Shown piece after piece: positions 6,046 through 25,407 of a stretch of 25,729 nucleotides of DNA. Location: positions 1-25,729 of IMG/VR virus record IMGVR_UViG_3300020109_000122; one strand, written 5' to 3'. Under the pieces are notes generated by a model. The model did no database searches, had not been told where the DNA came from, and saw nothing but the letters and a program-made list of their open reading frames with translations. Within the stretch, counting starts at the first letter, position 1. Every line of letters starts with the position of its first letter. Position numbers and translations under genes: made by a program. The stretch is from a virus.

Positions 6046-9000
6046 TTATCCTATCTTAAGCATTTGATTACTATTACTATTTAATGCTCCTGATCCAAAC
6101 ATTATAGTTGGATTGGAATTATTCATTGGCATAGGAACTGGTTTTTCAACAATAATGGGTTGTATAGCAACTCTCATTCCTTGACCATAAGTTTCATAAG
6201 ATGCAAAGGAATTTAGAATTGGACGTTTTGAGTTTTGGGGTCTTATGAGACCACCACCTTTATAGGCAACGTGAACATGGTCACTATGGCCTTTAGGGTC
6301 ATTCCCTTCATGATAAAGTTGAACTGGTTTTACACCGTTTATTCTATTAAACTCTTCAATTGCTGCAAGAATTTTAGTCTGGTCATCAACACCACGATAT
6401 CCCTGTGATCTATAGGTCTTTGGTCCATATCCACCAATATCAATTGCTCTAGCACCTTGAGAAGCATAGTGAAGAGACCCTCGGTTATGACCACTCTCAG
6501 GCTCCCAAGGTCTATGTTCAGGGTGTCGATGGACACCTGATCCAAAATTACCAAGTCCTTTAGCATCTATAAACCTCCCAAGTTCACCTGCAATTTTACT
6601 TCCCGCAGATCCATAACCAGGACCTAAAGTTGTGTCTAATTGCTCAACAGTGCCTTTAACTATCGTTTGATTGATTTGAGCAGGCATCAATTGACCTGCT
6701 TTAAATTTAGCAATATTTGCACCACCGGGTTCAAATCCAAAAGTATGTCCATGACGACTTTTTTCTGTTGAATCATCAAGATCATCATGTGATTCTTCAA
6801 AAGAATTTGTTCTAAAGTTATCTCTTGGTCCTACAAAAGTTCTTGCATTTTCTTGTTTTGTTTTATCCAACAATGCTGCAGCAATTTTTTCTACAATATT
6901 ACCACTATAACCTTTATATTTTCTTGCAAATGCAATTGCAGATTCCTTTGAATTTATATAACTCCATTCTCTTATTCCACCATATTTCCTTACTGGTCGA
7001 AATTGATTTGGTTGTAAGATGACACCTCTAATACTCTTCGGCCAGCCAGGTAAGGATACTCTATTATAAATTGCTTGAGCAACATCAGCTGCACCTTGAT
7101 ATCCATCCTCCCGTTTATCATTTTCAAAAAGGGCGGCAGTAACAAGTAACCAAAAATCTGGACTATCTGATGTTACACGAATGTTTCCAGGAGTGGTATC
7201 AAGTTTCTGATCATCCTGAACACCTTCACCTTCCTTGCTCTTTTCAGTTTCTTTATTAAGTTCTCTGAGTGCTTCATTTACTCTCTGCTCAATCAATATA
7301 TCAAGCACTTTTGAAATCATTTCACCAGGTTTTACACCTTGATTTACATCAATTCCTCTTCTTGGAATAGTTCCACCATCAGCCATTCCCATAATGGTTG
7401 AAGTAAGATTAGATAGACTCAATGATGTTTGTTGATTTGCGATAGTTTGAATCAAATATCCTAATCCACTACCAATTGATTTGTATATTTTTTTATCTGG
7501 TTTTTGTCCAAGGGCAACATCAACTGCAGCACCCATCAAATTGCCAATGAATGGTATCTTCTTTAATGTTTCTGAGATTTTAGTTAGAGCATTATATGGT
7601 CCAAAATCACGACTGGATGTAGCAGCACCTTGCTGTCCTCCTCCAAATAATCTTCCCAAACCCGATAACCAACCTTCTGGTGGTCTTTCATACTTATTTC
7701 TATTTCTTCCAGGTTTTGAATAAAATGTTCCGATTTTTGATTTTCCACCAACGTCTCTACCTACTTGAGTTTTTTGTGGTTGTATTTTTGGTGGTTTTTT
7801 AGTTCTTGATACACTAATACTTCTTCTTACTCCAGGTTTACCAGAACCAGTTGAAACTGAACCACCACCTTGTTTTTTCTCAATTTCTGCAGATTCTGCT
7901 GGTTCTTTACCTCCAAAAATCACATCATAAAGTGCTGCACCACCTTCACCACCAGCCCAAGCACCAACAAATGCTCCTACTGGTCCACCAGCAGCAGCAC
8001 CGACAGCACCTAAAAGAACAGAACCAATTCCACGAAATGCTGCTTTTCCTAATGGATCTCCAAGTGCCCAAGATAATCCAAATTCAATTAATCCACCTAT
8101 GATAGGAATTCTTCCCATCAAAGGTTTTAAAGTTCTAAGTGCTGCTCGTTGAGCAACTTTTCCTCCAATACCACCAGCACCTTGAGTTATTCTTGGTCCT
8201 GTTCCAGGAAATCTTAAATTGCCACGACCACCTTGAGTTACCCTAGGTTTTTGTCTCAGAGGATTTCTAAGATCTGGTCTTCCTGCTAACCTACCACCAG
8301 AAGTTGTTACACCTCTAAATCCTCTAGCAGCTCCTCTAGCAGCTCCTCTAGCAGCTGCGCCGCCACCAGCACCCCCACGCCCACCAGCAACACCACTTAA
8401 AAATCCAGTTCTAACTGCAGCAAGAGAGGCAATAATCGCAGCATTTAAAACAAGATTTAAATTCTTACTCGTCTCCTCAAAAATCTTTTCAGCATTTTCA
8501 CCGCCGATTTCTTTTGTCTTTTTCTCAATATCATCATAAATGTTATAACTTCCATCAATAAAATTGATTAAAGATGTTGTTAAGTTGACTAAGAATTTAG
8601 ATGTAAAATCAATAACACCACCAATAATTCTTCCAATAAATTGAAGTTTTGGAAGATACTTATAAGTGTTTGTGAATAACCAACCTAAAAAAGTATAAAG
8701 AATAAAGTTTTTAATTCTATCAAGAAAACCAGTTTTTGGTATGAGGTTAGTGGGTAGTCCTATTTTCTTAAATTGTTTTCCTTCTTCAAGTTTACTTTCT
8801 TTTTCTTCAAAATCTTTATTTTCATCATCTTTTCTTTTTCTTTCAAGATCTTTGTTCTGTGTTTTTAAGATATTTTTTAATAAATCATCAATTTGAGACA
8901 GAATTTTTGCATTATCATTTAAAGAAGAATCACTACCTGCTAAAAGTTTATCCGTTGATAATTTTTTGGTTTGAATTTTTTTAATAGGAACAATAAATTT

Positions 9001-9072
9001 ATCTGCCTTTACAATCGCAGAATTAGATGGTTTTTTTGCTGAAGGTAAAAGTTTTTGAGAATTGATTGCCAT
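6046..9072 (-). CDS. Large tail protein with SleB-like hydrolase and M15-like peptidase domains
   Basis: 1008 residues, ATG start, ending one base before the gp27-like ATG. In order: a basic N-terminus; a charged coiled coil (about 60-100); a hydrophobic LDRIKNFILYTFLGWLF segment (117-133); Gly/Ala-rich hydrophobic stretches (about 205-250, 320-385); then two lytic domains. Residues about 638-755 look like SleB/Hydrolase_2 (ALFENDKRED with candidate catalytic E650, AADVAQAIYNRV, VILQPNQF). Residues about 845-937 look like an M15-type zinc D,D-peptidase (SLHYASQGARAID with H868 and D878, then HSDHVHVAY with H932/H934). Its N-terminal part resembles that of the next gene upstream. Likely tape-measure or hub-lumen protein that digests peptidoglycan on entry. 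The domain calls are by motif only. Confidence 0.65.
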   Translation of the reverse strand: MAINSQKLLPSAKKPSNSAIVKADKFIVPIKKIQTKKLSTDKLLAGSDSSLNDNAKILSQIDDLLKNILKTQNKDLERKRKDDENKDFEEKESKLEEGKQFKKIGLPTNLIPKTGFLDRIKNFILYTFLGWLFTNTYKYLPKLQFIGRIIGGVIDFTSKFLVNLTTSLINFIDGSYNIYDDIEKKTKEIGGENAEKIFEETSKNLNLVLNAAIIASLAAVRTGFLSGVAGGRGGAGGGAAARGAARGAARGFRGVTTSGGRLAGRPDLRNPLRQKPRVTQGGRGNLRFPGTGPRITQGAGGIGGKVAQRAALRTLKPLMGRIPIIGGLIEFGLSWALGDPLGKAAFRGIGSVLLGAVGAAAGGPVGAFVGAWAGGEGGAALYDVIFGGKEPAESAEIEKKQGGGSVSTGSGKPGVRRSISVSRTKKPPKIQPQKTQVGRDVGGKSKIGTFYSKPGRNRNKYERPPEGWLSGLGRLFGGGQQGAATSSRDFGPYNALTKISETLKKIPFIGNLMGAAVDVALGQKPDKKIYKSIGSGLGYLIQTIANQQTSLSLSNLTSTIMGMADGGTIPRRGIDVNQGVKPGEMISKVLDILIEQRVNEALRELNKETEKSKEGEGVQDDQKLDTTPGNIRVTSDSPDFWLLVTAALFENDKREDGYQGAADVAQAIYNRVSLPGWPKSIRGVILQPNQFRPVRKYGGIREWSYINSKESAIAFARKYKGYSGNIVEKIAAALLDKTKQENARTFVGPRDNFRTNSFEESHDDLDDSTEKSRHGHTFGFEPGGANIAKFKAGQLMPAQINQTIVKGTVEQLDTTLGPGYGSAGSKIAGELGRFIDAKGLGNFGSGVHRHPEHRPWEPESGHNRGSLHYASQGARAIDIGGYGPKTYRSQGYRGVDDQTKILAAIEEFNRINGVKPVQLYHEGNDPKGHSDHVHVAYKGGGLIRPQNSKRPILNSFASYETYGQGMRVAIQPIIVEKPVPMPMNNSNPTIMFGSGALNSNSNQMLKIG
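8321..8356. repeat. Three perfect 12-bp tandem repeats
   Basis: The plus-strand unit CCTCTAGCAGCT occurs three times without mismatch. On the coding strand it specifies the AARG periodicity around residues 239-251 of the 1008-residue tail protein. This is a length-variable microsatellite in a flexible Gly/Ala/Arg linker. Confidence 0.85.
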
Positions 9073-9073
9073 C

Positions 9074-11854
9074 TTATCCTATTCCCAGTTGTTGTGCGAT
9101 TCTTTGTCTTTCTGATGCAGCTGCTGGAGAAACAGCACTTACCATAGGAACTTTAGTTGAACCACCTGGCATTTTCATATTTCCACCAGAAGATTGTGTG
9201 ATTGGAGGTAATGTAATCGGTGCCATTTTTCCAGTGTTGTATGGAGTTATGTTAGAAACTCTTTTGTTTCTCATTCCAAGTTTTGCTGGGGTTGAATCAG
9301 AATCACTATTGGCAACTAACTGATCAAGAAAACTCTTTCCAACTCTACTCACAGTACCAGATGGAATCATGTATTCTCCTGGTTGTGCTGCAATCAGTTG
9401 TCTATCAGCAGCAGCACCAGGAATGTTCCTTCCAGTGTTTTCTTTAATTAATCCACCACCCTGTCTTCTAATTGGATCTGTTATTTGTTCATATAAATCT
9501 TTTCCTTTTTTCCTTCCTAATTGTTCACCAATCCATCCGCCACCAGGGACACCAGATTGTCTTCCTTTAGTTCCACCAAGCACTCTGCCGCCAGTTTCAA
9601 AAACATTTCTACCAAAAGAATCCAAACCTTCTATTAATCCACCACCCTGTCTTCTAATTGGATCTGTTATTTGTTCATATAAATCTTTTCCTTTTTTCCT
9701 TCCTAATTGTTCACCAATCCATCCGCCACCAGGGACACCAGATTGTCTTCCTTTAGTTCCACCAAGCACTCTGCCGCCAGTTTCAAAAACATTTCTACCA
9801 AAAGAATCCAAACCTTCTATTAATCCACCACCCTGCATACCTATCAATCCACCACCACTACCTCCACTACCTCTTCTACCTCCCATACCACCACCAGCAG
9901 GATTATATTTTGGTGCTGATTTTGCTATTGGATCATTTATTCTTGGTTTATTTTTTAATTTATTTGAAGAATCAATTGATCCCATTATTCTTTTAGCATT
10001 TGCAAGTCTTCTGTCTAGGTGTGGAATTCTAGGAGCCTCATAAGCCTTCATAAAATTAGTAGTTGCATCTATAAGATTTTTTGAACCTAACCAAGTGCTT
10101 TTTGTCTTTCTACCATAAGGAAGTTGAGGTCTCCCTAAAGAATCTGGGTTGCTAGTATCCATTTCATACTTCACGTATGCTAATTGTTGAGATAAATTAT
10201 TGATGATTCCTGGACCAAACATTTTTGTTGCAGTGTCCCACCTTCCAGGTGTTTCCCACTGTGCAATTCCTCTACCAGGACCCCCACGTAGTTGATAAGT
10301 ATTTGGTTTAAGTCCTGGTGCTTCTGTCTCAAAGTTTCCCAAAGCACCAGCAATATGAAAATCCCTTGCCGATGAAAAATTTAATTTCATAGTGTCATAA
10401 GCAGTTTTAAAATTCCCCGATAAGGGGGGACTTGCTTGACTAGTTGCTTTCTTATCACCAATCATACCACCTTGATTAAATCCAACTAAACCACCAAGAT
10501 TTGCAAGACGTAATCCGTTAGAAGTTCTAACTTTGTTTGTAGGGATGAATTGAGGTTTACGATCTTTTACATAATTTGCGACATCAAAACCAGTTTTCTG
10601 ATATATTGCTCCCTGATCTTCGGGTGTAAGAACAACTTCGCCAGGTCTGGCCGCAATCAATTGTGTATCTGGTCCTGCTCCAGTAATAGTAACTCCAGTG
10701 TCACTATCAATTCCATTATATCCACCCTCAACCATTGCACCAGATTTGGCTCTTTGAACAAATCCACCACCACTTACTCCTTGAAGAGAACCAGTTGGAG
10801 ATGGTGGTCTAAGATTACCAGTACTTGGCATTTCATCTGCCATGGGATCGGTTCCTTGAACGGGCAGTGCTTTTCCTCTGTCTACTTTTGCTTGTTGATC
10901 TGCCTGAACAGGCGCTGCTTGCCTTTGTCCCGTAACTTCATTGGCAAGAAGAGCCATTCCTGCAAAAGCAGCAGGAACAGCAACAAAAGGATTCTTAAGA
11001 ACTGGAAGCAATTTTAATAGTTGTTTTCCAAAAAGTTTAACTAATGTAAGTGTTGATTTTACAAATATACCAAAAGGACTTAAAAATAGTAAATACGCAG
11101 CAAGAAGAGACGGCCACCAATCTTTTACAAATCTTACGAGATTGGAAAGTTTTCCTTGGTTTTCTGGATTTTTTAACCAATCCATTAATTGTCCAAATGC
11201 TCTTCCTAAAATTGTAAAGAAGATAAATTTCCAAATTCTATCAAGAATATTTTGTAATGGTGCTACTACAGTTTGAATAATATTTTGAAATGCTTTTTTT
11301 CCTTTTTCTAAATCTTCTTCTTTTTTCTTTCTTCTCTTGTTTTCAGATTCTTTTCTTGATTTTTCACTCGATTTTTGTTGGATGTTGAATATAGATTTCA
11401 AACTACTTAGAATAGAATCTAAAATAGGAGTTATAGACAAATCTCCTTTAGCATCAATAGGTTTATCAACTACCGATACTTTTCCAGTTAATAAAAGTGG
11501 TGCTTTTTTTGTAACGGCAAGTCCAGAAATACTGTCTGCAGTTATTTTCTTTTTCTTTAGTTTAAATCTTCCAGTTTTACTTTTAACTCTTCTAAGTTCT
11601 TTTACCAACAACTCATCTTCTTCTGTAGGAATTTTTTTAGCACCCATTCTAGCGGCAACTAATTTTTCTTTCAGAAGAGTTTGATAAGTACCATAATCAA
11701 TGTCGAATATATCTTCAAGTCCAAGGAAATTTAAGATTCTTTCATCAATTTCTTCGTCAACAAGATCTTCATCTCCTTTACCTTCATATTTTACAAGGGC
11801 GGATTCTTTCTTCCCATCATCCCTTATACTTTTTAGCAGGTCATCGAGATTCAT
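9074..11854 (-). CDS. Large tail protein with Phage_lysozyme2-like domain and 62-residue tandem repeat
   Basis: 926 residues, ATG start overlapping the end of the small ORF upstream by 14 bases. In order: an acidic N-terminus; a charged coiled coil (about 160-190); LDRIWKFIFFTILGRAF (204-220); hydrophobic helices (about 240-305); a first QLIAARPGE motif (398-406); a lysozyme-like domain (about 485-625) with IAGALGNFETE (candidate catalytic E509/E511), GRGIAQWE (527-534) and a RRLANAKRI end; two identical 62-residue repeats (676-737, 738-799); and a second QLIAAQPGE motif (819-827). The GNFE...GIAQW pattern is that of Phage_lysozyme2 tail muralytic domains. The PGE motifs are common in tape-measure and tail-lumen proteins. 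I infer it is a tape-measure or hub protein carrying its own lysozyme. T4 gp29 lies in the comparable position but I see no clear similarity. Confidence 0.65.
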   Translation of the reverse strand: MNLDDLLKSIRDDGKKESALVKYEGKGDEDLVDEEIDERILNFLGLEDIFDIDYGTYQTLLKEKLVAARMGAKKIPTEEDELLVKELRRVKSKTGRFKLKKKKITADSISGLAVTKKAPLLLTGKVSVVDKPIDAKGDLSITPILDSILSSLKSIFNIQQKSSEKSRKESENKRRKKKEEDLEKGKKAFQNIIQTVVAPLQNILDRIWKFIFFTILGRAFGQLMDWLKNPENQGKLSNLVRFVKDWWPSLLAAYLLFLSPFGIFVKSTLTLVKLFGKQLLKLLPVLKNPFVAVPAAFAGMALLANEVTGQRQAAPVQADQQAKVDRGKALPVQGTDPMADEMPSTGNLRPPSPTGSLQGVSGGGFVQRAKSGAMVEGGYNGIDSDTGVTITGAGPDTQLIAARPGEVVLTPEDQGAIYQKTGFDVANYVKDRKPQFIPTNKVRTSNGLRLANLGGLVGFNQGGMIGDKKATSQASPPLSGNFKTAYDTMKLNFSSARDFHIAGALGNFETEAPGLKPNTYQLRGGPGRGIAQWETPGRWDTATKMFGPGIINNLSQQLAYVKYEMDTSNPDSLGRPQLPYGRKTKSTWLGSKNLIDATTNFMKAYEAPRIPHLDRRLANAKRIMGSIDSSNKLKNKPRINDPIAKSAPKYNPAGGGMGGRRGSGGSGGGLIGMQGGGLIEGLDSFGRNVFETGGRVLGGTKGRQSGVPGGGWIGEQLGRKKGKDLYEQITDPIRRQGGGLIEGLDSFGRNVFETGGRVLGGTKGRQSGVPGGGWIGEQLGRKKGKDLYEQITDPIRRQGGGLIKENTGRNIPGAAADRQLIAAQPGEYMIPSGTVSRVGKSFLDQLVANSDSDSTPAKLGMRNKRVSNITPYNTGKMAPITLPPITQSSGGNMKMPGGSTKVPMVSAVSPAAASERQRIAQQLGIG
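9447..9835. repeat. Perfect 186-bp tandem duplication (2.1 copies)
   Basis: Copies at 9447-9632 and 9633-9818 match base for base by eye, and the first 17 bases recur at 9819-9835. The unit is 62 codons, so the frame of the 926-residue tail protein is kept. Each unit starts at a GGGLI motif. The absence of synonymous differences means a very recent duplication, or an assembly effect. Confidence 0.95.
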
Positions 11855-12020
11855 TTTGCTGGTGCTTTGCTTTTTCTTCTTCTAAATGATTTTGCAATAA
11901 TGTAACGTATACGTCCCTTTCCCAAGGAATCATATGTTCAATCTCCCATAATGAATATTTATGATACTGCATCAAAGCAAAATTCATTTTGAAATAACTT
12001 TCCAGATCCATATGGATCAT
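11841..12020 (-). CDS. Small tail-assembly-chaperone-like ORF after gp26, possibly expressed by -1 frameshift
   Basis: 59 residues from ATG 12020, or 56 from ATG 12011. Neither start has a good ribosome site. The sequence MDLESYFKMNFALM then HKYSLWEIEHMIPWERDVYVTLL and a charged tail (EEEKAKHQQ) has the helix-MPWxE pattern of the 'T' part of tail assembly chaperones such as lambda gpG-T. It occupies the place of a small gene that follows gene 26 in this phage group. The frame is open upstream into the end of gp26 and is entered by a -1 slip at T TTT TTC (12035-12029), giving a fusion of about 300 residues. It overlaps the next gene's ATG by 14 bases. Confidence 0.7.
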   Translation of the reverse strand: MIHMDLESYFKMNFALMQYHKYSLWEIEHMIPWERDVYVTLLQNHLEEEKAKHQQNESR

Positions 12021-12035
12021 GCCTATGCGAAAAAA
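12005..12035 (-). promoter_or_regulatory. Candidate -1 ribosomal frameshift signal at the end of gp26
   Basis: The gp26 frame reads GCA AGT TTT TTC GCA TAG. The heptamer T TTT TTC (12035-12029) is in the correct X XXY YYZ register for -1 slippage. After slippage translation continues CGC ATA GGC ATG into the small downstream ORF. Ten bases beyond it lies GATCCATATGGATC (12018-12005), a perfect palindrome that can fold as a 5-bp stem with an ATAT loop and could act as the stimulatory element. The stem is short, so its effect is uncertain. Confidence 0.6.
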
Positions 12036-12742
12036 CTTGCTAACCCTTCCAAAACAACTTCACTTTCAACTTCGGTTTTTGGATTTGTAATCTTAACAGT
12101 ATGAGACAATTTAGGCATTGTCTCAAAGAACTTTTCAATTTGTTTGAACTGACTTGAGTTCATTTGATCTAAGAATTCGATTAGTTCTTTTTTAGTAACA
12201 TCAGATGCTGACCAAACTTCATCCTCAGTGTAGATCTTATCAATACAAGAACCAATCAAATCAAATGACTGATCCATATTATTTTCTGCAGTAAAATCAA
12301 AATTATTTTTAATAAACTGGTCAAGTGATGGATATCTCATTTCCATTATGATATGTTCATCAACCTTGATTTGCTTGTTATGTTCTTCGTTCTTTTGAAC
12401 TTTAATATCATCAATTAAAATTTTAAGAGGAACCATAGTTTCTTCATCATCAGGGCAAATTAAATTAAGTTCAACTTCTTCCCCTACAGATTTTCCTCTG
12501 ATATTTAAGAAAAGATATTCAATATCAAAAGTAGGAAGTGATTCAACCTTAATTGCTTTTGTCTCGATACAATTCTTAAGAACTGCTTTGATTGCTGTTG
12601 TAATCTGTTTAGTATCTTCCGATTCTAATGCAAGAACTAACAGTTTTTCTTCTCTTACAAGAAAAGGTCTATACTTAATTGTTTGTCCAGTTGAAGGCAA
12701 CTCAAGTTCATAAGTTGGTGTAGAAATCTTAGGTAAAGGCAT
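12023..12742 (-). CDS. gp26: gp26-like baseplate hub assembly protein
   Basis: 239 residues, ATG start; T4 gp26 has 208. The protein begins MPLPKISTPTYELELPSTG and continues KYRPFLVREEKLLVLALE, the characteristic opening of the T4 gp26 baseplate family (a short beta hairpin followed by an acidic helix that recurs in tail chaperone 'G' proteins). The rest is acidic with alternating helices and strands, ending in VESEVVLEGLASFFA. A late-type CTAAATAA box lies 27 bases upstream. The slippery heptamer just before its stop suggests that a fraction is made as a longer frameshifted form with the following small ORF. Confidence 0.8.
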   Translation of the reverse strand: MPLPKISTPTYELELPSTGQTIKYRPFLVREEKLLVLALESEDTKQITTAIKAVLKNCIETKAIKVESLPTFDIEYLFLNIRGKSVGEEVELNLICPDDEETMVPLKILIDDIKVQKNEEHNKQIKVDEHIIMEMRYPSLDQFIKNNFDFTAENNMDQSFDLIGSCIDKIYTEDEVWSASDVTKKELIEFLDQMNSSQFKQIEKFFETMPKLSHTVKITNPKTEVESEVVLEGLASFFA

Positions 12743-12795: not shown

Positions 12796-13560
12796 TTATG
12801 AACCAAAAGGTGTAACGGGTATACGAATTGGTTGATATGTTGTAGTTCCTGGTGTTGGTGGCCCTTGGTATCCAGGAAGTTCATTACCAGGTGCTGATGG
12901 TGCTGTAGTTGGTGAATCAGCTGCAGGAGTATTTCCAATATAATATCTCAAATATGTGAATGAAACAGTACATTTCAACAATTGAGAACTATCATAAGAT
13001 ACTGGCATCGAATTAATGCTGATCGGATAAGCTGCAACAAAATTATACTTTAATGGTGTTCCCTTGTCATTAAATATACTTCCAGAATCTTTTTCAAACT
13101 TTGTAATTGAAAGTGATCCACCTTTAGATCCTCCAGCAACGTAGTCATCAGGAAAAGAAACTCTGTAAGTGGTATTTAACTTTGCAATTGTTTTAGTCTG
13201 TTCATTTACGGCAACTCCAATCCAAGATTCAAAATACTTAATTACATAATAATTTTTAGCATCAACGTAAAAAGTAAAATCGGACCTATCATCATACGCC
13301 CTTCGGTAAGCATATCTTTCAGTTACTCCAGTGTAGTCATCAGTTATTTCATTGGTGAGAAGAGATGATCCAGGTAACGATGCTTCAAAACAAGATAAAT
13401 TAATATAATCTTGAACAGTTGTTGGTGAATCATTAATACTATAAGCTGTAAGTTTTTGTGCAATAGGTGATGGTGCCTGCACTTGAACTAAGTATGTTGA
13501 TGTCAGAGCAGGTCTTAAGAGTTTGCTCTTAAGGTCCGACATTTTGACTGGTGCTGTCAT
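12796..13560 (-). CDS. Tail-tube-fold protein, probable gp54-like tube initiator
   Basis: 254 residues, ATG start. The sequence (SDLKSKLLRPALTSTYLVQVQAPSP, then INLSCFEASLPGSSLLTNEITDDYTGVTERYAYRRAYDDRSDFTFYVD, then NFVAAYPISINSMPVSY and LLKCTVSFTYLRYYIG) has the order of strands typical of T4 gp19/gp54 tube-fold proteins: substrate loops, a 'F.ASLPG' turn and a final strand pair. A P/G-rich tail of about 40 residues follows. At 254 residues it lies between gp19 (163) and gp54 (320). Its neighbours gp48, gp53 and gp26 are baseplate proteins, which favours gp54, the tube initiator, over the major tube subunit. Transcribed divergently from gp4. Confidence 0.6.
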   Translation of the reverse strand: MTAPVKMSDLKSKLLRPALTSTYLVQVQAPSPIAQKLTAYSINDSPTTVQDYINLSCFEASLPGSSLLTNEITDDYTGVTERYAYRRAYDDRSDFTFYVDAKNYYVIKYFESWIGVAVNEQTKTIAKLNTTYRVSFPDDYVAGGSKGGSLSITKFEKDSGSIFNDKGTPLKYNFVAAYPISINSMPVSYDSSQLLKCTVSFTYLRYYIGNTPAADSPTTAPSAPGNELPGYQGPPTPGTTTYQPIRIPVTPFGS

Positions 13561-18788: not shown

Positions 18789-19456
18789 GTTGGCATTTTA
18801 TCTTGAACAAACTTTTTGATATATTTTACTAACAATTTAACGTATTTACTTTTATCTTTTTCTTCATAAACAACAAGTTCACCATTTTCACAAGTCATTA
18901 TGATTACAAATTTCTTTACAGATAATCCTGTAAGTTCGTGAAGCATACACGCATAAGCACAACATTGCACAAAATAACCTTCAATCCACTCTCTTGGTTT
19001 TGGTTGTTTTGAAGTTTTAAAGTCAATGATAGAAAGTTCTCCATCAAATTCAGCAATACAATCAACAGTTCCTGCTATCCCGAGAAACTCACTGTAAAGA
19101 CAACCTTCTAATGCGTAGATATTATTTATACGATTTAAAGCTGGAACTGCAATCTGAAACAAATGTTCGGATATAGGAAGAACATCAGAGTTGCAGTCCA
19201 TATTTCTCAGATGATGCTCAATCAACGTGTGAGTATCTGTTCCACGACTTGTTGCTTTACGAGTGATGCGATCTGCTTCTTCGTTTCCTACTTTTTTCCT
19301 CCAAGTAGCAAACTTTTCTTTACTGAAATGACTGATGACAGAAGTTATGGAAACTAATTTTTTGAGTTCATTATTTTTTGGAATTTTATAATAACGAACT
19401 CCATCAATAGTTTCTCTTTCGAGACGAGGAAGTTCTAATTCAACATGTTCAAACAT
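18785..19456 (-). CDS. MGME1-like PD-(D/E)XK exonuclease
   Basis: 223 residues, ATG overlapping the phoH stop (TAATG). The core reads RGTDTHTLIEHHL (H76), GIAGTVDCIAEFDGE (D132), LSIIDFKTSKQPK (D145, K147) and GYFVQCCAYACML (Q164), which is the RecB-type nuclease order found in MGME1/RecB-like single-strand exonucleases, with the D-x-K pair on the central strand and the Q motif on the next helix. The first 45 residues (VSITSVISHFSK) are also family-like. Acts on DNA, probably in recombination or processing of replication ends. It shares its transcript with phoH. Confidence 0.8.
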   Translation of the reverse strand: MFEHVELELPRLERETIDGVRYYKIPKNNELKKLVSITSVISHFSKEKFATWRKKVGNEEADRITRKATSRGTDTHTLIEHHLRNMDCNSDVLPISEHLFQIAVPALNRINNIYALEGCLYSEFLGIAGTVDCIAEFDGELSIIDFKTSKQPKPREWIEGYFVQCCAYACMLHELTGLSVKKFVIIMTCENGELVVYEEKDKSKYVKLLVKYIKKFVQDKMPT

Positions 19457-20205
19457 TAGAGATTCAATTCCATTTTTGCAACGATATATTCTTTAACCAA
19501 TCCAGAACGAACAATATCTTCCGCATTAAACTCAATCAACTGAAAAGATGGCATCACTCTCAAAATACTCATAAAATCTATAATTCCATTTCTCTCGTTA
19601 GTTTTTACAAGATCTGACTGAGTTGCATCACCACAGAACATAATTTTAGAATTTTCACCAACTCGGGTAATGATAGAATCTAATTCATGAAAATTTAGAT
19701 TTTGAAATTCATCCACAATAATAATAGCATTATCAAGAGTTGTTCCACGGATGAATGAGGTACTCCAAAAACTAATTGTTCCTTGAGTTTTCAGATTGCC
19801 ATATAGCATTTCAAACGAAGAGTCATCTGGCATTTCAAACATATACTTTACCATATTCTTATATGGAATTTGATAAAGTGATGATTTGTCCTCATGGTCT
19901 CCAGGAAGAAAACCAATTTCTCTTGTGGCAACTAAAGAACGGACAAGATAAATTTTTTCATAGGGACTTTTTTCGTCTAAAACTTCCCTTAGAGCATTAT
20001 AAAGAGTGATGAAAGTTTTACCAGTTCCTGCTGCACCGTAAGCTACAAGATGTTTACCTTCAGCATATGCTTTAAATAGTGCCTCTTGGTTATCTGTAAG
20101 AGGATCAATTGTCCTCATAATATCCAAGTTTATTGGTTTCTTTCTTTTCATCTGTCTGTTGGTCATACCAAAAGGTACTGGATTCGTAACTTTTTTTCTT
20201 GCCAT
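19456..20205 (-). CDS. phoH: PhoH-like ATPase
   Basis: 249 residues, ATG start. Walker A GAAGTGKT (57-64), a conserved LVRSLVATREIGFLPG block (87-102), Walker B IIIVDEFQN (161-169), and a sensor-like MFCGDATQSDLVK. PhoH proteins are cytoplasmic P-loop ATPases related to helicase motor domains; they are frequent in marine phages and often called phosphate-regulated, although their activity in phage infection is not established. I see no obvious pho box in front of it. It is followed without a gap by the exonuclease, so a joint role in nucleic acid processing is as plausible as one in phosphate stress. Confidence 0.92.
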   Translation of the reverse strand: MARKKVTNPVPFGMTNRQMKRKKPINLDIMRTIDPLTDNQEALFKAYAEGKHLVAYGAAGTGKTFITLYNALREVLDEKSPYEKIYLVRSLVATREIGFLPGDHEDKSSLYQIPYKNMVKYMFEMPDDSSFEMLYGNLKTQGTISFWSTSFIRGTTLDNAIIIVDEFQNLNFHELDSIITRVGENSKIMFCGDATQSDLVKTNERNGIIDFMSILRVMPSFQLIEFNAEDIVRSGLVKEYIVAKMELNL

Positions 20206-20479: not shown

Positions 20480-20487
20480 TATTTATT
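20480..20487 (-). promoter_or_regulatory. Late-promoter-like box before the 80-residue gene
   Basis: Minus strand AATAAATA, overlapping the end of thyX (its TAA stop at 20485-20483) and 22 bases before the next ATG. Matches the TAAATA-core late motif. Tentative. Confidence 0.35.
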
Positions 20488-21211
20488 CAATACAGATAGA
20501 TGGGGCATCAGAACAATCAGAACAATCTTCTCCACGAGTCCATTCAAGTGCTTCAGATACTGCAGGAAATTGACAAATAAAGATGCAACGAATTGCCTCC
20601 GCAATATCCATATGTTCTTTTTGAGTTCCGTGAGCACTACGAAGATCAATATAATGTATCCATGACCTTACAGATCCAGTCATATAAAGTCTGGTAGGAG
20701 TTGCTAATGGCAATACAAATCTAGCACACTCTTTTGCTACACCTTTTTCAAGAAGACGATCATAAAGACGTTGAGAACCTTCAAAGTGAATACGAATAGA
20801 TTCTAATAGAGTAAGTCGAAGATAATCCGGAAGATTGTCAATTGAATTTTGTCGATTCTTATCATCCTGCCTACGAAGTTCTGGAAGAGGAATTGCTTTG
20901 TTCAATAAATTTGTATCAGCATATCTTTGAGAAAATTCTTGATAAGTAAATGATCTATGCCTCAAAATTTGAGCGGCAATAGCTCTACTCGTATTAATTT
21001 CTACAGTCATTGATGCTTGCTCAAAAATACTCCAGTGTTGATGCTTAATGCAGTATCCTAAGAGTCGCGCAAAGTTTTGATTGGTTTGATTTTGTGGATT
21101 TGAAACACGGGCACAGTATGCCATATGTTTCTCTGCATCTGGTGTTGCAGACACAAACTTTACTTCTGGTTTCATAAACTCAAATTCAGTCAGGATATCA
21201 ATCATTGTCAT
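20483..21211 (-). CDS. thyX: Flavin-dependent thymidylate synthase ThyX
   Basis: 242 residues from ATG 21211; ATG 21175 (MKPEVKFVSATPDAEKHM) is an alternative start nearer the family norm. ThyX makes dTMP from dUMP with FAD and methylene-tetrahydrofolate. The signature RHR-N7-S is present as RHRSFTYQEFS (R84, H85, R86, S94) followed by QRY (95-97). Flanking helices (FEQASMTVEINTSRAIAAQIL, and later RFVLPLATPTRLYMTGSVRSWIHYIDLR split by turns) fit the substrate- and FAD-binding segments. The C-terminus has extra Asp/Cys-rich residues (RGEDCSDCSDAP). The start overlaps the 55-residue gene by 14 bases. It supplies nucleotides for phage DNA synthesis. Confidence 0.93.
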   Translation of the reverse strand: MTMIDILTEFEFMKPEVKFVSATPDAEKHMAYCARVSNPQNQTNQNFARLLGYCIKHQHWSIFEQASMTVEINTSRAIAAQILRHRSFTYQEFSQRYADTNLLNKAIPLPELRRQDDKNRQNSIDNLPDYLRLTLLESIRIHFEGSQRLYDRLLEKGVAKECARFVLPLATPTRLYMTGSVRSWIHYIDLRSAHGTQKEHMDIAEAIRCIFICQFPAVSEALEWTRGEDCSDCSDAPSICIE

Positions 21212-22340: not shown

Positions 22341-22667
22341 TTACCGTTCAATATAACTTAACGTATGATTCTGAGAGAACAGTTGTTCAATGATTATATC
22401 ACAACCAATTTTAGGATTACAGTCTCCACAAGTATACACGTCTACCGCAGCTTTTCCTTCCTCAGGCCATGTGTGAATACTAATATGACTCTCAGATAAA
22501 AGACAAAGAACAGTGACTCCCTGCGGATCAAACTTTTTATGTATTGTTTGGCAAACAGTAGCACCGCTCGCTGATGCTGCATTTTCAAGTAAATCTATAA
22601 GAAAACACTCGTCGTTCAAAAGAACAAACGAGCAACCATATAAATTTAATAAAAAATGTTTACCCAT
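22341..22667 (-). CDS. speD: S-adenosylmethionine decarboxylase proenzyme SpeD
   Basis: 108 residues, ATG overlapping the previous gene by 8 bases. The bacterial class-1B enzyme cleaves itself to form a pyruvoyl group and decarboxylates AdoMet for spermidine synthesis. The self-cleavage motif LLSESHISIHTWPE (57-70) is intact: cleavage E59-S60, processing H65, and C80 in YTCGDC as the proton donor. The N-terminus GKHFLLNLYGC is also typical. Slightly shorter than the usual 115-130. Last gene of the glutaredoxin operon. In cyanophages it is counted as an auxiliary metabolic gene; polyamines may help DNA packaging or keep photosynthesis running. Confidence 0.93.
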   Translation of the reverse strand: MGKHFLLNLYGCSFVLLNDECFLIDLLENAASASGATVCQTIHKKFDPQGVTVLCLLSESHISIHTWPEEGKAAVDVYTCGDCNPKIGCDIIIEQLFSQNHTLSYIER

Positions 22668-24091: not shown

Positions 24092-24331
24092 TTAGATAAA
24101 TTTATTCTCTTTCAAATATTTTACAGTATCTACACATCCTCCAATGTGCTCTTGATCATTCAAGATAACTTGAGGGAATGTAGATCCTTGACCAAATTCG
24201 GCGTAAAATTGTTCTTTTGTGAAATCAACGCCTAACTTATAAGTTTTATAATCTATTCCACTTAGTTGAAGAACTTGCTCAACTTTACTGCAATATGGAC
24301 ATCCATTTTTAGAATAAACAGAAAACCTCAT
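24092..24331 (-). CDS. grx: Glutaredoxin
   Basis: 79 residues, ATG start. The dithiol active site CPYC is at 11-14 after the strand FSVYSKNG; TFPQVILND supplies the cis-Pro loop, and GGCVDTVKYLKE the last helix with the GG glutathione-binding turn and an extra Cys. It likely gives electrons to ribonucleotide reductase or reduces thiols during infection. First gene of the operon that ends with speD, behind a near-perfect sigma-70 promoter at 24359-24387. No ribosome site is obvious before the ATG. Confidence 0.9.
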   Translation of the reverse strand: MRFSVYSKNGCPYCSKVEQVLQLSGIDYKTYKLGVDFTKEQFYAEFGQGSTFPQVILNDQEHIGGCVDTVKYLKENKFI

Positions 24332-24387: not shown

Positions 24388-24511
24388 TTCATATCTTCTT
24401 CAATATCATCTTCAATTATTTTTTAATTATAAACTTTTTATAAGTATACAGTTGAGGCCAAGTATCACGAATGATCTCTGCTAACTTGTAAGGAGTTGTT
24501 GAACTAATCAT
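24384..24511 (-). CDS. Small gene coupled to the glycoside hydrolase, with a possible frameshift at A6
   Basis: The ATG at 24511 overlaps the hydrolase stop (ATGA). Read directly it gives 31 residues (MISSTTPYKLAEIIRDTWPQ, ...) and stops at TAA 24418-24416, right after AAA AAA. One extra A, or a -1 slip on that A run (24424-24419), continues as I-I-E-D-D-I-E-E-D-M-N to TGA 24386-24384, giving 42 residues with an acidic end. Either the gene is truncated by a one-base deletion, or the longer product needs slippage. Function unknown. Confidence 0.5.
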
Positions 24512-25407
24512 AGAATACTATCAATAAAATTTCTATCAGGTTGTAAATTATCTCTATTTCTTAATACGTCACCACCAAATCCATCCATTAACCATAAAGG
24601 TCTATTGTCATTCCAGGCAGTTCTTAGACCTAACACATTCGATGTAAGTGCCCAACTATGATCAGTGTCTAAAATTTGTGGTCCTTTAAATCCAGAAACC
24701 TTACGAACACCTCCTGCTCTTGCTGAGTTACTTGGAGCAATCCAATCAGCACCAACTTTCTTTAACCAAGATTGATCTTTATACACTCCAACAGCATAAC
24801 TCACTCCCACAGGTTTATTGGTAAGTTCCTTTATCCATTTTACCACTTTAGCTTGAAATGTGGGAGCACTTTTACCAGAAAGTTCATTTCCAACTTCATA
24901 GATTACATTGTCATACTTTTCTAAAGTCTTCACAGTCTTACGAACGTGAGCTCTTTGATACTTATTCCAGGGACCAATCGTATGAACTTCAGAAGGATCT
25001 TTTGGTCCAAGACCATTCAGAGGATGATTTTTCCATCCACCATCAAAGTAGGCATTAAATGCGTGATCAAAAAGAACAACACCAGTCACGATGTCTTTCT
25101 TTTCTGCCTGTGAAACTACTTGATCTAAGGCATTATAATACTTTTGATTTAACTCTCCGTTTTTCTTCCACGGAACCACATCTACAGTCGCAACTCCCTT
25201 TGTGTTACTACCATAGAACTTATTATCCAATCTCATTCCCTTGGTTTCTATAGTCCATAATCTTGTAAAGTTTCCAGTAATTTTATCAATTGAAACTTTT
25301 TTACCATTAAATGCCTGAACTATATTCCAAGTATGATTTCCTGCTAATTTTAGAGGAGTTCCATTAAATGTAAAATAATCTTTAACAACTCGAATGCCCT
25401 GAGACAT
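24508..25407 (-). CDS. Clan GH-A-like glycoside hydrolase
   Basis: 299 residues, ATG start. The sequence follows a TIM-barrel hydrolase: YFTFNGTPLKLAGNHTWN (first strand), FTRLWTIE, VVLFDHAFN, WKNHPLNGLGP, the acid/base strand NVIYEVGNE (167-175, E175), then ILDTDHSW (246-252) and RPLWLMDGFGG (269-279). NHTWN, the E-x-x-NE strand and DTDHxW match cellulase-like proteins related to DUF4038/DUF6298 and the apiosidase group. The usual nucleophile Glu near the seventh strand is not clear (WLMDG), so the catalytic pair needs checking. No signal peptide. It could degrade host exopolysaccharide or be a virion depolymerase. The stop is coupled to the small gene at 24511, and a CTAAATA box lies 24 bases upstream. 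Confidence 0.65.
   Translation of the reverse strand: MSQGIRVVKDYFTFNGTPLKLAGNHTWNIVQAFNGKKVSIDKITGNFTRLWTIETKGMRLDNKFYGSNTKGVATVDVVPWKKNGELNQKYYNALDQVVSQAEKKDIVTGVVLFDHAFNAYFDGGWKNHPLNGLGPKDPSEVHTIGPWNKYQRAHVRKTVKTLEKYDNVIYEVGNELSGKSAPTFQAKVVKWIKELTNKPVGVSYAVGVYKDQSWLKKVGADWIAPSNSARAGGVRKVSGFKGPQILDTDHSWALTSNVLGLRTAWNDNRPLWLMDGFGGDVLRNRDNLQPDRNFIDSIL

Follow-up and report, generated by a model that had tools for sequence, protein, structure and literature searches.

A predicted −1 ribosomal frameshift at the end of gp26, a putative tail-assembly chaperone gene of T4-like phages

The gp26 locus

The DNA analysed here, referred to as the window, comprises nucleotides (nt) 1 to 25,729 of the viral record IMGVR_UViG_3300020109_000122 (IMG/VR) and is a tail module of a T4-like cyanophage of the Kyanoviridae type. 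The subject is its gene gp26, whose 3' end carries a candidate site for programmed −1 ribosomal frameshifting into a small downstream open reading frame (ORF). An earlier note, made from the letters alone, had proposed such a slip and likened it to the G / G-T arrangement of lambda-type tail-assembly chaperones (TAC). The features concerned are the following.

12023–12742, minus strand: gp26, zero-frame product of 239 amino acids, putative short TAC form (analogue of lambda gpG / TAC-N); PF12322, E = 1.2e-75, and phrog_150, E = 3.3e-81
12029–12035, minus strand: slippery heptamer T_TTT_TTC in the zero-frame register
12023–12025, minus strand: zero-frame stop TAG, one sense codon (GCA) past the heptamer
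11841–12029, minus strand: extension in the −1 frame by 62 amino acids (RIGMIH...NESR) and a stop, forming a gp51-like / T-like domain that matches phrog_634 ('baseplate hub assembly catalyst'; E = 1.2e-26) as well as the C-terminal part of the gp26 profile phrog_150
11841–12742, minus strand: predicted frameshift fusion of 300 amino acids (TAC-NC / gpGT analogue), from the coordinates
12044–12050, minus strand: Shine-Dalgarno-like (SD-like) GGAAGGG, a candidate stimulator of frameshifting lying 8 nt upstream of the heptamer
12005–12018, minus strand: stem of 5 base pairs (bp) with an AUAU loop (GAUCC-AUAU-GGAUC), likewise a candidate stimulator, at a distance of 10 nt downstream of the heptamer

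The 3' end of gp26 reads GCA AGT TTT TTC GCA TAG, and the heptamer at 12035–12029 stands in the register that the earlier note had described. Past the slip the −1 frame encodes FF-RIGMIHMDLESYFKMNFALMQYHKYSLWEIEHMIPWERDVYVTLLQNHLEEEKAKHQQNESR, remaining open until the TGA at 11843–11841, so that the protein of about 300 residues foreseen in the note is borne out by the coordinates. The note had also ascribed to the small ORF an MPWxE pattern and the lack of a good ribosome site of its own. Many relatives do have MPWE, whereas the window reads IPWER; the two in-frame ATGs just past the gp26 stop (12020 and 12011) indeed have no SD-like sequence ahead of them.

Conservation of the slip site and of the −1 frame

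Relatives of gp26 were drawn from viral contigs and phage records and the small domain was located by tblastn, which gave 272 usable loci, 195 of them with distinct ends; thinning to less than 90% nucleotide identity left 161 genes, the set to which the counts below refer unless stated otherwise. An in-register T_TTT_TTC or T_TTT_TTT placed 1–3 codons ahead of the stop, together with a −1 frame open into the small domain, was found in 270 of the 272 loci and in 193 of the 195 distinct ends. Loci with this signal span Kyanoviridae, Pelagibacter phage HTVC008M, Sinorhizobium phage phiM7, Straboviridae (Aeh1, Aswh_1, LPCS28 and nt-1), Stenotrophomonas phage BUCT608 and Variovorax phage V45v66.

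The in-register T_TTT_TTY is kept by all 161 non-redundant genes and TTTTTTY occurs just twice elsewhere in them; the conservation of the heptamer is therefore far beyond chance. The first of the two slip phenylalanine codons is TTT in every correctly aligned case, and the codon ahead of them ends in T throughout while alternating among AGT, TCT, AAT, GAT, GCT and GGT. By synonymous constraint the two slip codons take ranks 1 and 2 of 170 scored columns, and on the tree the heptamer positions show zero changes against about 20 at neighbouring third positions. The alignment of relatives thus upholds the conservation of heptamer and frame offset on which the note had staked its proposal: in all 161 genes the small domain lies in the −1 frame relative to gp26, and no synonymous change interrupts the T run.

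In the first zero-frame codon past the heptamer the second base differs among relatives (GCN, GGN, GTN, GAN); read in the −1 frame, this base is the silent third position of the arginine codon CGN. Further downstream the change counts keep a three-base periodicity in the −1 frame. This points to selection acting in the −1 frame. Judged from the sequence, the site thus has what is expected of a programmed −1 frameshift, namely an in-register X_XXY_YYZ heptamer and a −1 frame that is open, coding and conserved in its offset; signal, conservation, frame and homology can all be read directly from the relatives.

A joined coding sequence is annotated at this site in none of the 24 annotated regions examined, and the records of syn9, HTVC008M, phiM7 and nt-1 list the small ORF as a gene of its own, a 'baseplate hub assembly catalyst'. 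Unannotated gaps of about 165 nt 3' of gp26 contain the −1-frame gp51-like domain in Aeh1 (region L167, 2217–2384), LPCS28 (L170, 2711–2875) and Aswh_1 (L176, 2705–2869).

Candidate stimulatory elements

Two elements flank the heptamer as sequence, of which the upstream SD-like motif lies beyond what the earlier note had listed. Stimulatory elements accompany many programmed −1 sites, though they are not indispensable. An SD-like score of at least 4.5 is reached upstream of the heptamer in 92% of the relatives compared with 9% of control stretches. The underlying Glu-Gly codons alternate between GAA GGG and GAG GGH (two-by-two table 44, 12, 4, 87), and the two sites change together on 22 branches, the branches with a change numbering 32 and 26.

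Downstream, the palindrome GATCCATATGGATC at 12018–12005 lies ten bases after the heptamer, as the note had it. Its role as a stem holds for about half of the relatives, since 77 of the 161 have a covarying stem of 5 bp that closes a loop of AUAU or ACAU, in the versions GGUCC/GGACC, GAUCC/GGAUC and GGUUC/GAACC. The two common versions have folding energies of −5.1 and −7.1 kcal/mol, the third one of −4.7. Compensating double changes run from G-C to A-T about 17 times and from C-G to T-A four times, with 16 shared change branches out of 18 and 20 for a stem pair. In a linkage control of 1381 site pairs the two stem pairs rank 5–6 and every higher rank is held by neighbouring bases; in a shuffling test 97.9% of cells were paired versus 92.1% when shuffled, with 25 double-change cells versus 8.8. 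The shared change branches and these ranks exclude a palindrome arising by chance, and its distribution excludes a universal stimulator. No Rfam family matches within 11800–12300.

The three-part −1 signals of E. coli dnaX and IS911 consist of an upstream SD-like element, a heptamer and a downstream stem, all of which recur in the gp26 site. They differ from it in having a poly-A heptamer, a larger stem and a shorter spacing.

An alternative that concerns the stem alone is that the palindrome conceals the internal ATGs, preventing a lone small domain, rather than stimulating slippage. The stem covers the G of the ATG at 12020, overlaps the ATG at 12011 and sits far from the heptamer, which speaks for such a role; we consider it less likely than not as a replacement for stimulation, although the two roles are compatible and both could be true.

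Gene order and modelled fold of gp26

Two further genes frame the site.

12796–13560, minus strand: tail tube protein gene, immediately upstream of gp26; PF23849, phrog_45
9074–11854, minus strand: ORF of 926 amino acids, next downstream and overlapping the end of the −1 ORF; Phage_lysozyme2, E = 5e-15; candidate tape-measure / tail lysozyme protein, the tape-measure role being proposed from position

Along the minus strand, the tail tube gene, gp26, the small −1-frame ORF ending at 11841 and large ORFs of 926 and 1008 amino acids follow one another in that order. The 926-amino-acid ORF is large and rightly placed for a tape-measure protein and has no match to a tape-measure family; in HTVC008M a 'putative tail tape measure' follows the gp26 region after one intervening small gene.

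The gp26 product was modelled with AlphaFold2 (predicted local distance difference test, pLDDT, 86.5) and the model was compared with solved structures by Foldseek and VIA. For residues 1–96 the top three VIA matches were HK97 gp13 (2OB9, Z 8.0), 3FGX (Z 7.9) and YqbN (3KLU, Z 7.3), followed by a row at 4.9; Foldseek alone was weak, its best match being 2OB9 at E = 0.72. All three structures are described as tail-assembly chaperones (PMC9603447). As modelled, the N-domain fold is thus closest to solved tail-assembly chaperones, which supports the assignment rather than proving it. A gp26-profile sequence search of solved structures returned chance-level matches only (caspase-3, MtrB), and at the threshold used the lambda-type TAC families in Pfam gave no match for this gene.

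Relation to gp26 and gp51 of T4

The whole of T4 gp51 (249 amino acids) is matched by the gp26 profile phrog_150 (E = 2.6e-84), and its C-terminal part also by the small-ORF profile phrog_634, while the match of T4 gp26 (208 amino acids) is confined to the short part. In alignment, T4-type gp51 and the predicted fusions show no insertion or deletion across the junction. By homology, then, T4 gp51 is an in-frame fusion of gp26 with the small domain and T4 gp26 the short form, and this collinearity of T4-type gp26/gp51 with the two predicted products argues for a short and a long chaperone form, the long one being the short one plus a C-domain. The likeness to G / G-T drawn in the earlier note is accordingly strengthened by three observations: the position after the tail tube gene, the chaperone-like fold and a natural in-frame fusion in T4.

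None of the split-gene phages examined has a slippery heptamer at the end of gp26; the T4-like members keep Phe-Phe as TTC TTT and others have lost it. Since gp51 is collinear with the fusion and the split-gene phages are without the heptamer, the two products appear to come from two genes in T4 and from one frameshifting gene here. In the gp26/gp51 tree T4-type gp51 forms one clade (100%) and most T4-type gp26 another (81%), with the gp26 of EC-F2 apart and the deep branches weak. Straboviridae hold both arrangements and share the frameshifting one with other families, so we infer that frameshifting is the likelier ancestral state, with the caution that the deep tree is weak. We would give about even odds to the wider proposal that the site is a dnaX-like signal of three parts (SD-like motif, T_TTT_TTC and covarying hairpin), a kind not met for tail chaperones in the literature consulted, and that T4 gp26 and gp51 derive from duplication of an ancestral frameshifting gene, each copy keeping one product.

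Two split-gene phages, ZZ1 (region L277, 2500–3250) and that of region L290 (2501–3246), have a gp51 interrupted by a frame change, with match lengths of 749 and 746 nt; these are probably sequencing errors in base runs.

Proposed mechanism and alternative explanations

Taken together, the sequence evidence suggests that gp26 is a tail-assembly chaperone gene decoded in two ways through a −1 ribosomal frameshift, with a predicted fusion as its second product; we place the probability of this reading at roughly 0.93. Most ribosomes would halt at the TAG and release the 239-residue gp26. A minority, with tRNA-Phe in the P and A sites on T_TTT_TTC, would slip back by one base, both tRNAs re-pairing with UUU, and would bypass the stop and append the 62-residue gp51-like domain to give the 300-residue fusion. 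The SD-like sequence upstream and, in this lineage, the short hairpin downstream would probably boost slippage. If lambda gpG/gpGT is a guide, the short form may coat the tape-measure protein in many copies and the long form, in few, may recruit tail tube subunits. Slippage itself, its rate and the roles of both proteins are what we infer here.

Several points weigh against this reading. Slippage at the site and the fusion product are predictions from sequence. VIA Z values of 7.3–8.0 are within reach of unrelated folds, though the top three belong to one family and the next stands at 4.9. The stem is confined to the 77 relatives counted above, about half of the set, its 10-nt spacing exceeds what is usual for bacterial −1 sites, and short-range recombination could inflate the co-change counts. 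The ATGs just past the stop could, by re-initiation, also yield the small protein alone. Finally, the heptamer is missing in two divergent Vibrio phages, K362 and K475, which have a TAATG stop/start overlap instead.

In these two phages the overlap (K362, region L174, about position 2579; K475, region L173, about 2723) leads to the same −1-frame domain, the K362 end reading CTT TTC AAG TAATGG, and there is no tail tube gene directly upstream of the gp26 relative. This is possibly a third way to make both proteins, by coupling.

The database view is that the small ORF is a separate gene, a short gp51 re-initiated at ATG 12020 or 12011 after the gp26 stop, with the T run incidental. Besides the annotations cited above, it can draw on an in-frame ATG at codon 6 in 99 of the 161 relatives and on the TAATG overlap of the Vibrio phages. 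However, before the conserved core 37 relatives have no ATG and 30 have no ATG, GTG or TTG at all, and in 125 none of the starts is accompanied by an SD-like motif, so that an independent start, which the earlier note had named among the findings that would count against it, is not the general explanation. A separate gene would also leave unexplained the invariant in-register heptamer, the fixed frame and the fact that T4 gp51 is the fusion; we regard it as very improbable.

Least credible of all is transcriptional slippage, in which RNA polymerase would insert or skip a U along the T run and part of the mRNA would thereby carry the fusion in a single frame: a run of 6–8 T does occur in all frameshifting relatives, yet it is just 6 T in most, short for such slippage, and ends in C in nearly all, and the exact register, the SD-like motif and the stem are expected for ribosomal rather than transcriptional slippage.

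Known systems and implications

Frameshifting of TAC genes is classic, and a 2016 review (PMC5009743) that covers the programmed −1 frameshift of lambda gpG/gpGT (Levin 1993; Xu 2004) lists T4 as the exception. In common with lambda, the present phage has a short chaperone gene that follows the one for the tail tube, a predicted −1 slip close to the end of that gene and a C-terminal extension; unlike lambda, it has another slippery heptamer and, at its site, a stem and an SD-like motif. The TAC genes of Vandenendeviridae and Andersonviridae, described with phage Adele (PMC12846349), likewise end TAC-N in a conserved poly-T −1 site followed by a long open −1 frame usually annotated as hypothetical, although their motif is GTTTTT and the phage families are different.

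Frameshifting of TAC genes, T4-like phages included, appears not to be a new idea, since PRFect (PMC10885494) and the Adele paper, in the passages concerned, cite Vladimirov, Gautam and Davidson 2022 (Virology 566:9-15) as having identified the T4-like TAC genes. According to PRFect, that work states that some T4-like phages pair a short gene with a long fused one; according to the Adele paper, it reports slippery poly-T sequences in the TAC-N genes of T4-like phages. The remark in the earlier note that gp26 is not usually annotated this way therefore stands for the annotations and not for the idea. As far as can be told from these citing papers, the T4-like gp26/gp51 chaperones are the same family (phrog_150/PF12322), with the difference that T4 obtains two forms from two genes and this phage, as predicted, both from one gene by −1 slippage.

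Possibly new are the three-part signal, its breadth, and an explanation of the "truncated gp51" of cyanophages and the "missing gp51" of Aeh1. Sullivan et al. 2010 (PMC3037559) reported that cyanophage and vibriophage gp51 are without the first ~200 residues, that cyanophage gp51 has about 20% of the T4 length, and that Aeh1 is without gp51. Cyanophage gp51 would be short because gp26 supplies the rest by the predicted frameshift, and in Aeh1 it would not be missing because the heptamer and an unannotated −1-frame domain are present. On this reading, a conserved gene of virion assembly would have its annotation corrected in hundreds of T4-like phages, where the second product is at present either overlooked or entered as a tiny gene of its own, a 'hub assembly catalyst', and T4 would gain a clear relation to the rule of tail frameshifting. 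For reporter work in E. coli or cyanobacteria the site also offers a well-conserved natural sequence.

Other observations in the window

Of the two consecutive large tail ORFs past the chaperone gene, that at 9074–11854 has a Phage_lysozyme2 domain and that at 6046–9072 a Hydrolase_2 domain, so that their cell-wall hydrolase domains differ. The former contains an exact 186-bp tandem repeat at 9447–9835 (2.1 copies, 100% identical) that repeats a Gly-rich segment of 62 amino acids and reflects either a recent duplication or an assembly effect. An ORF of 299 amino acids at 24508–25407 has no Pfam match and resembles a glycoside hydrolase by eye; the same stretch holds speD (22341–22667), a glutaredoxin gene (24092–24331), thyX (20483–21211) and phoH (19456–20205).

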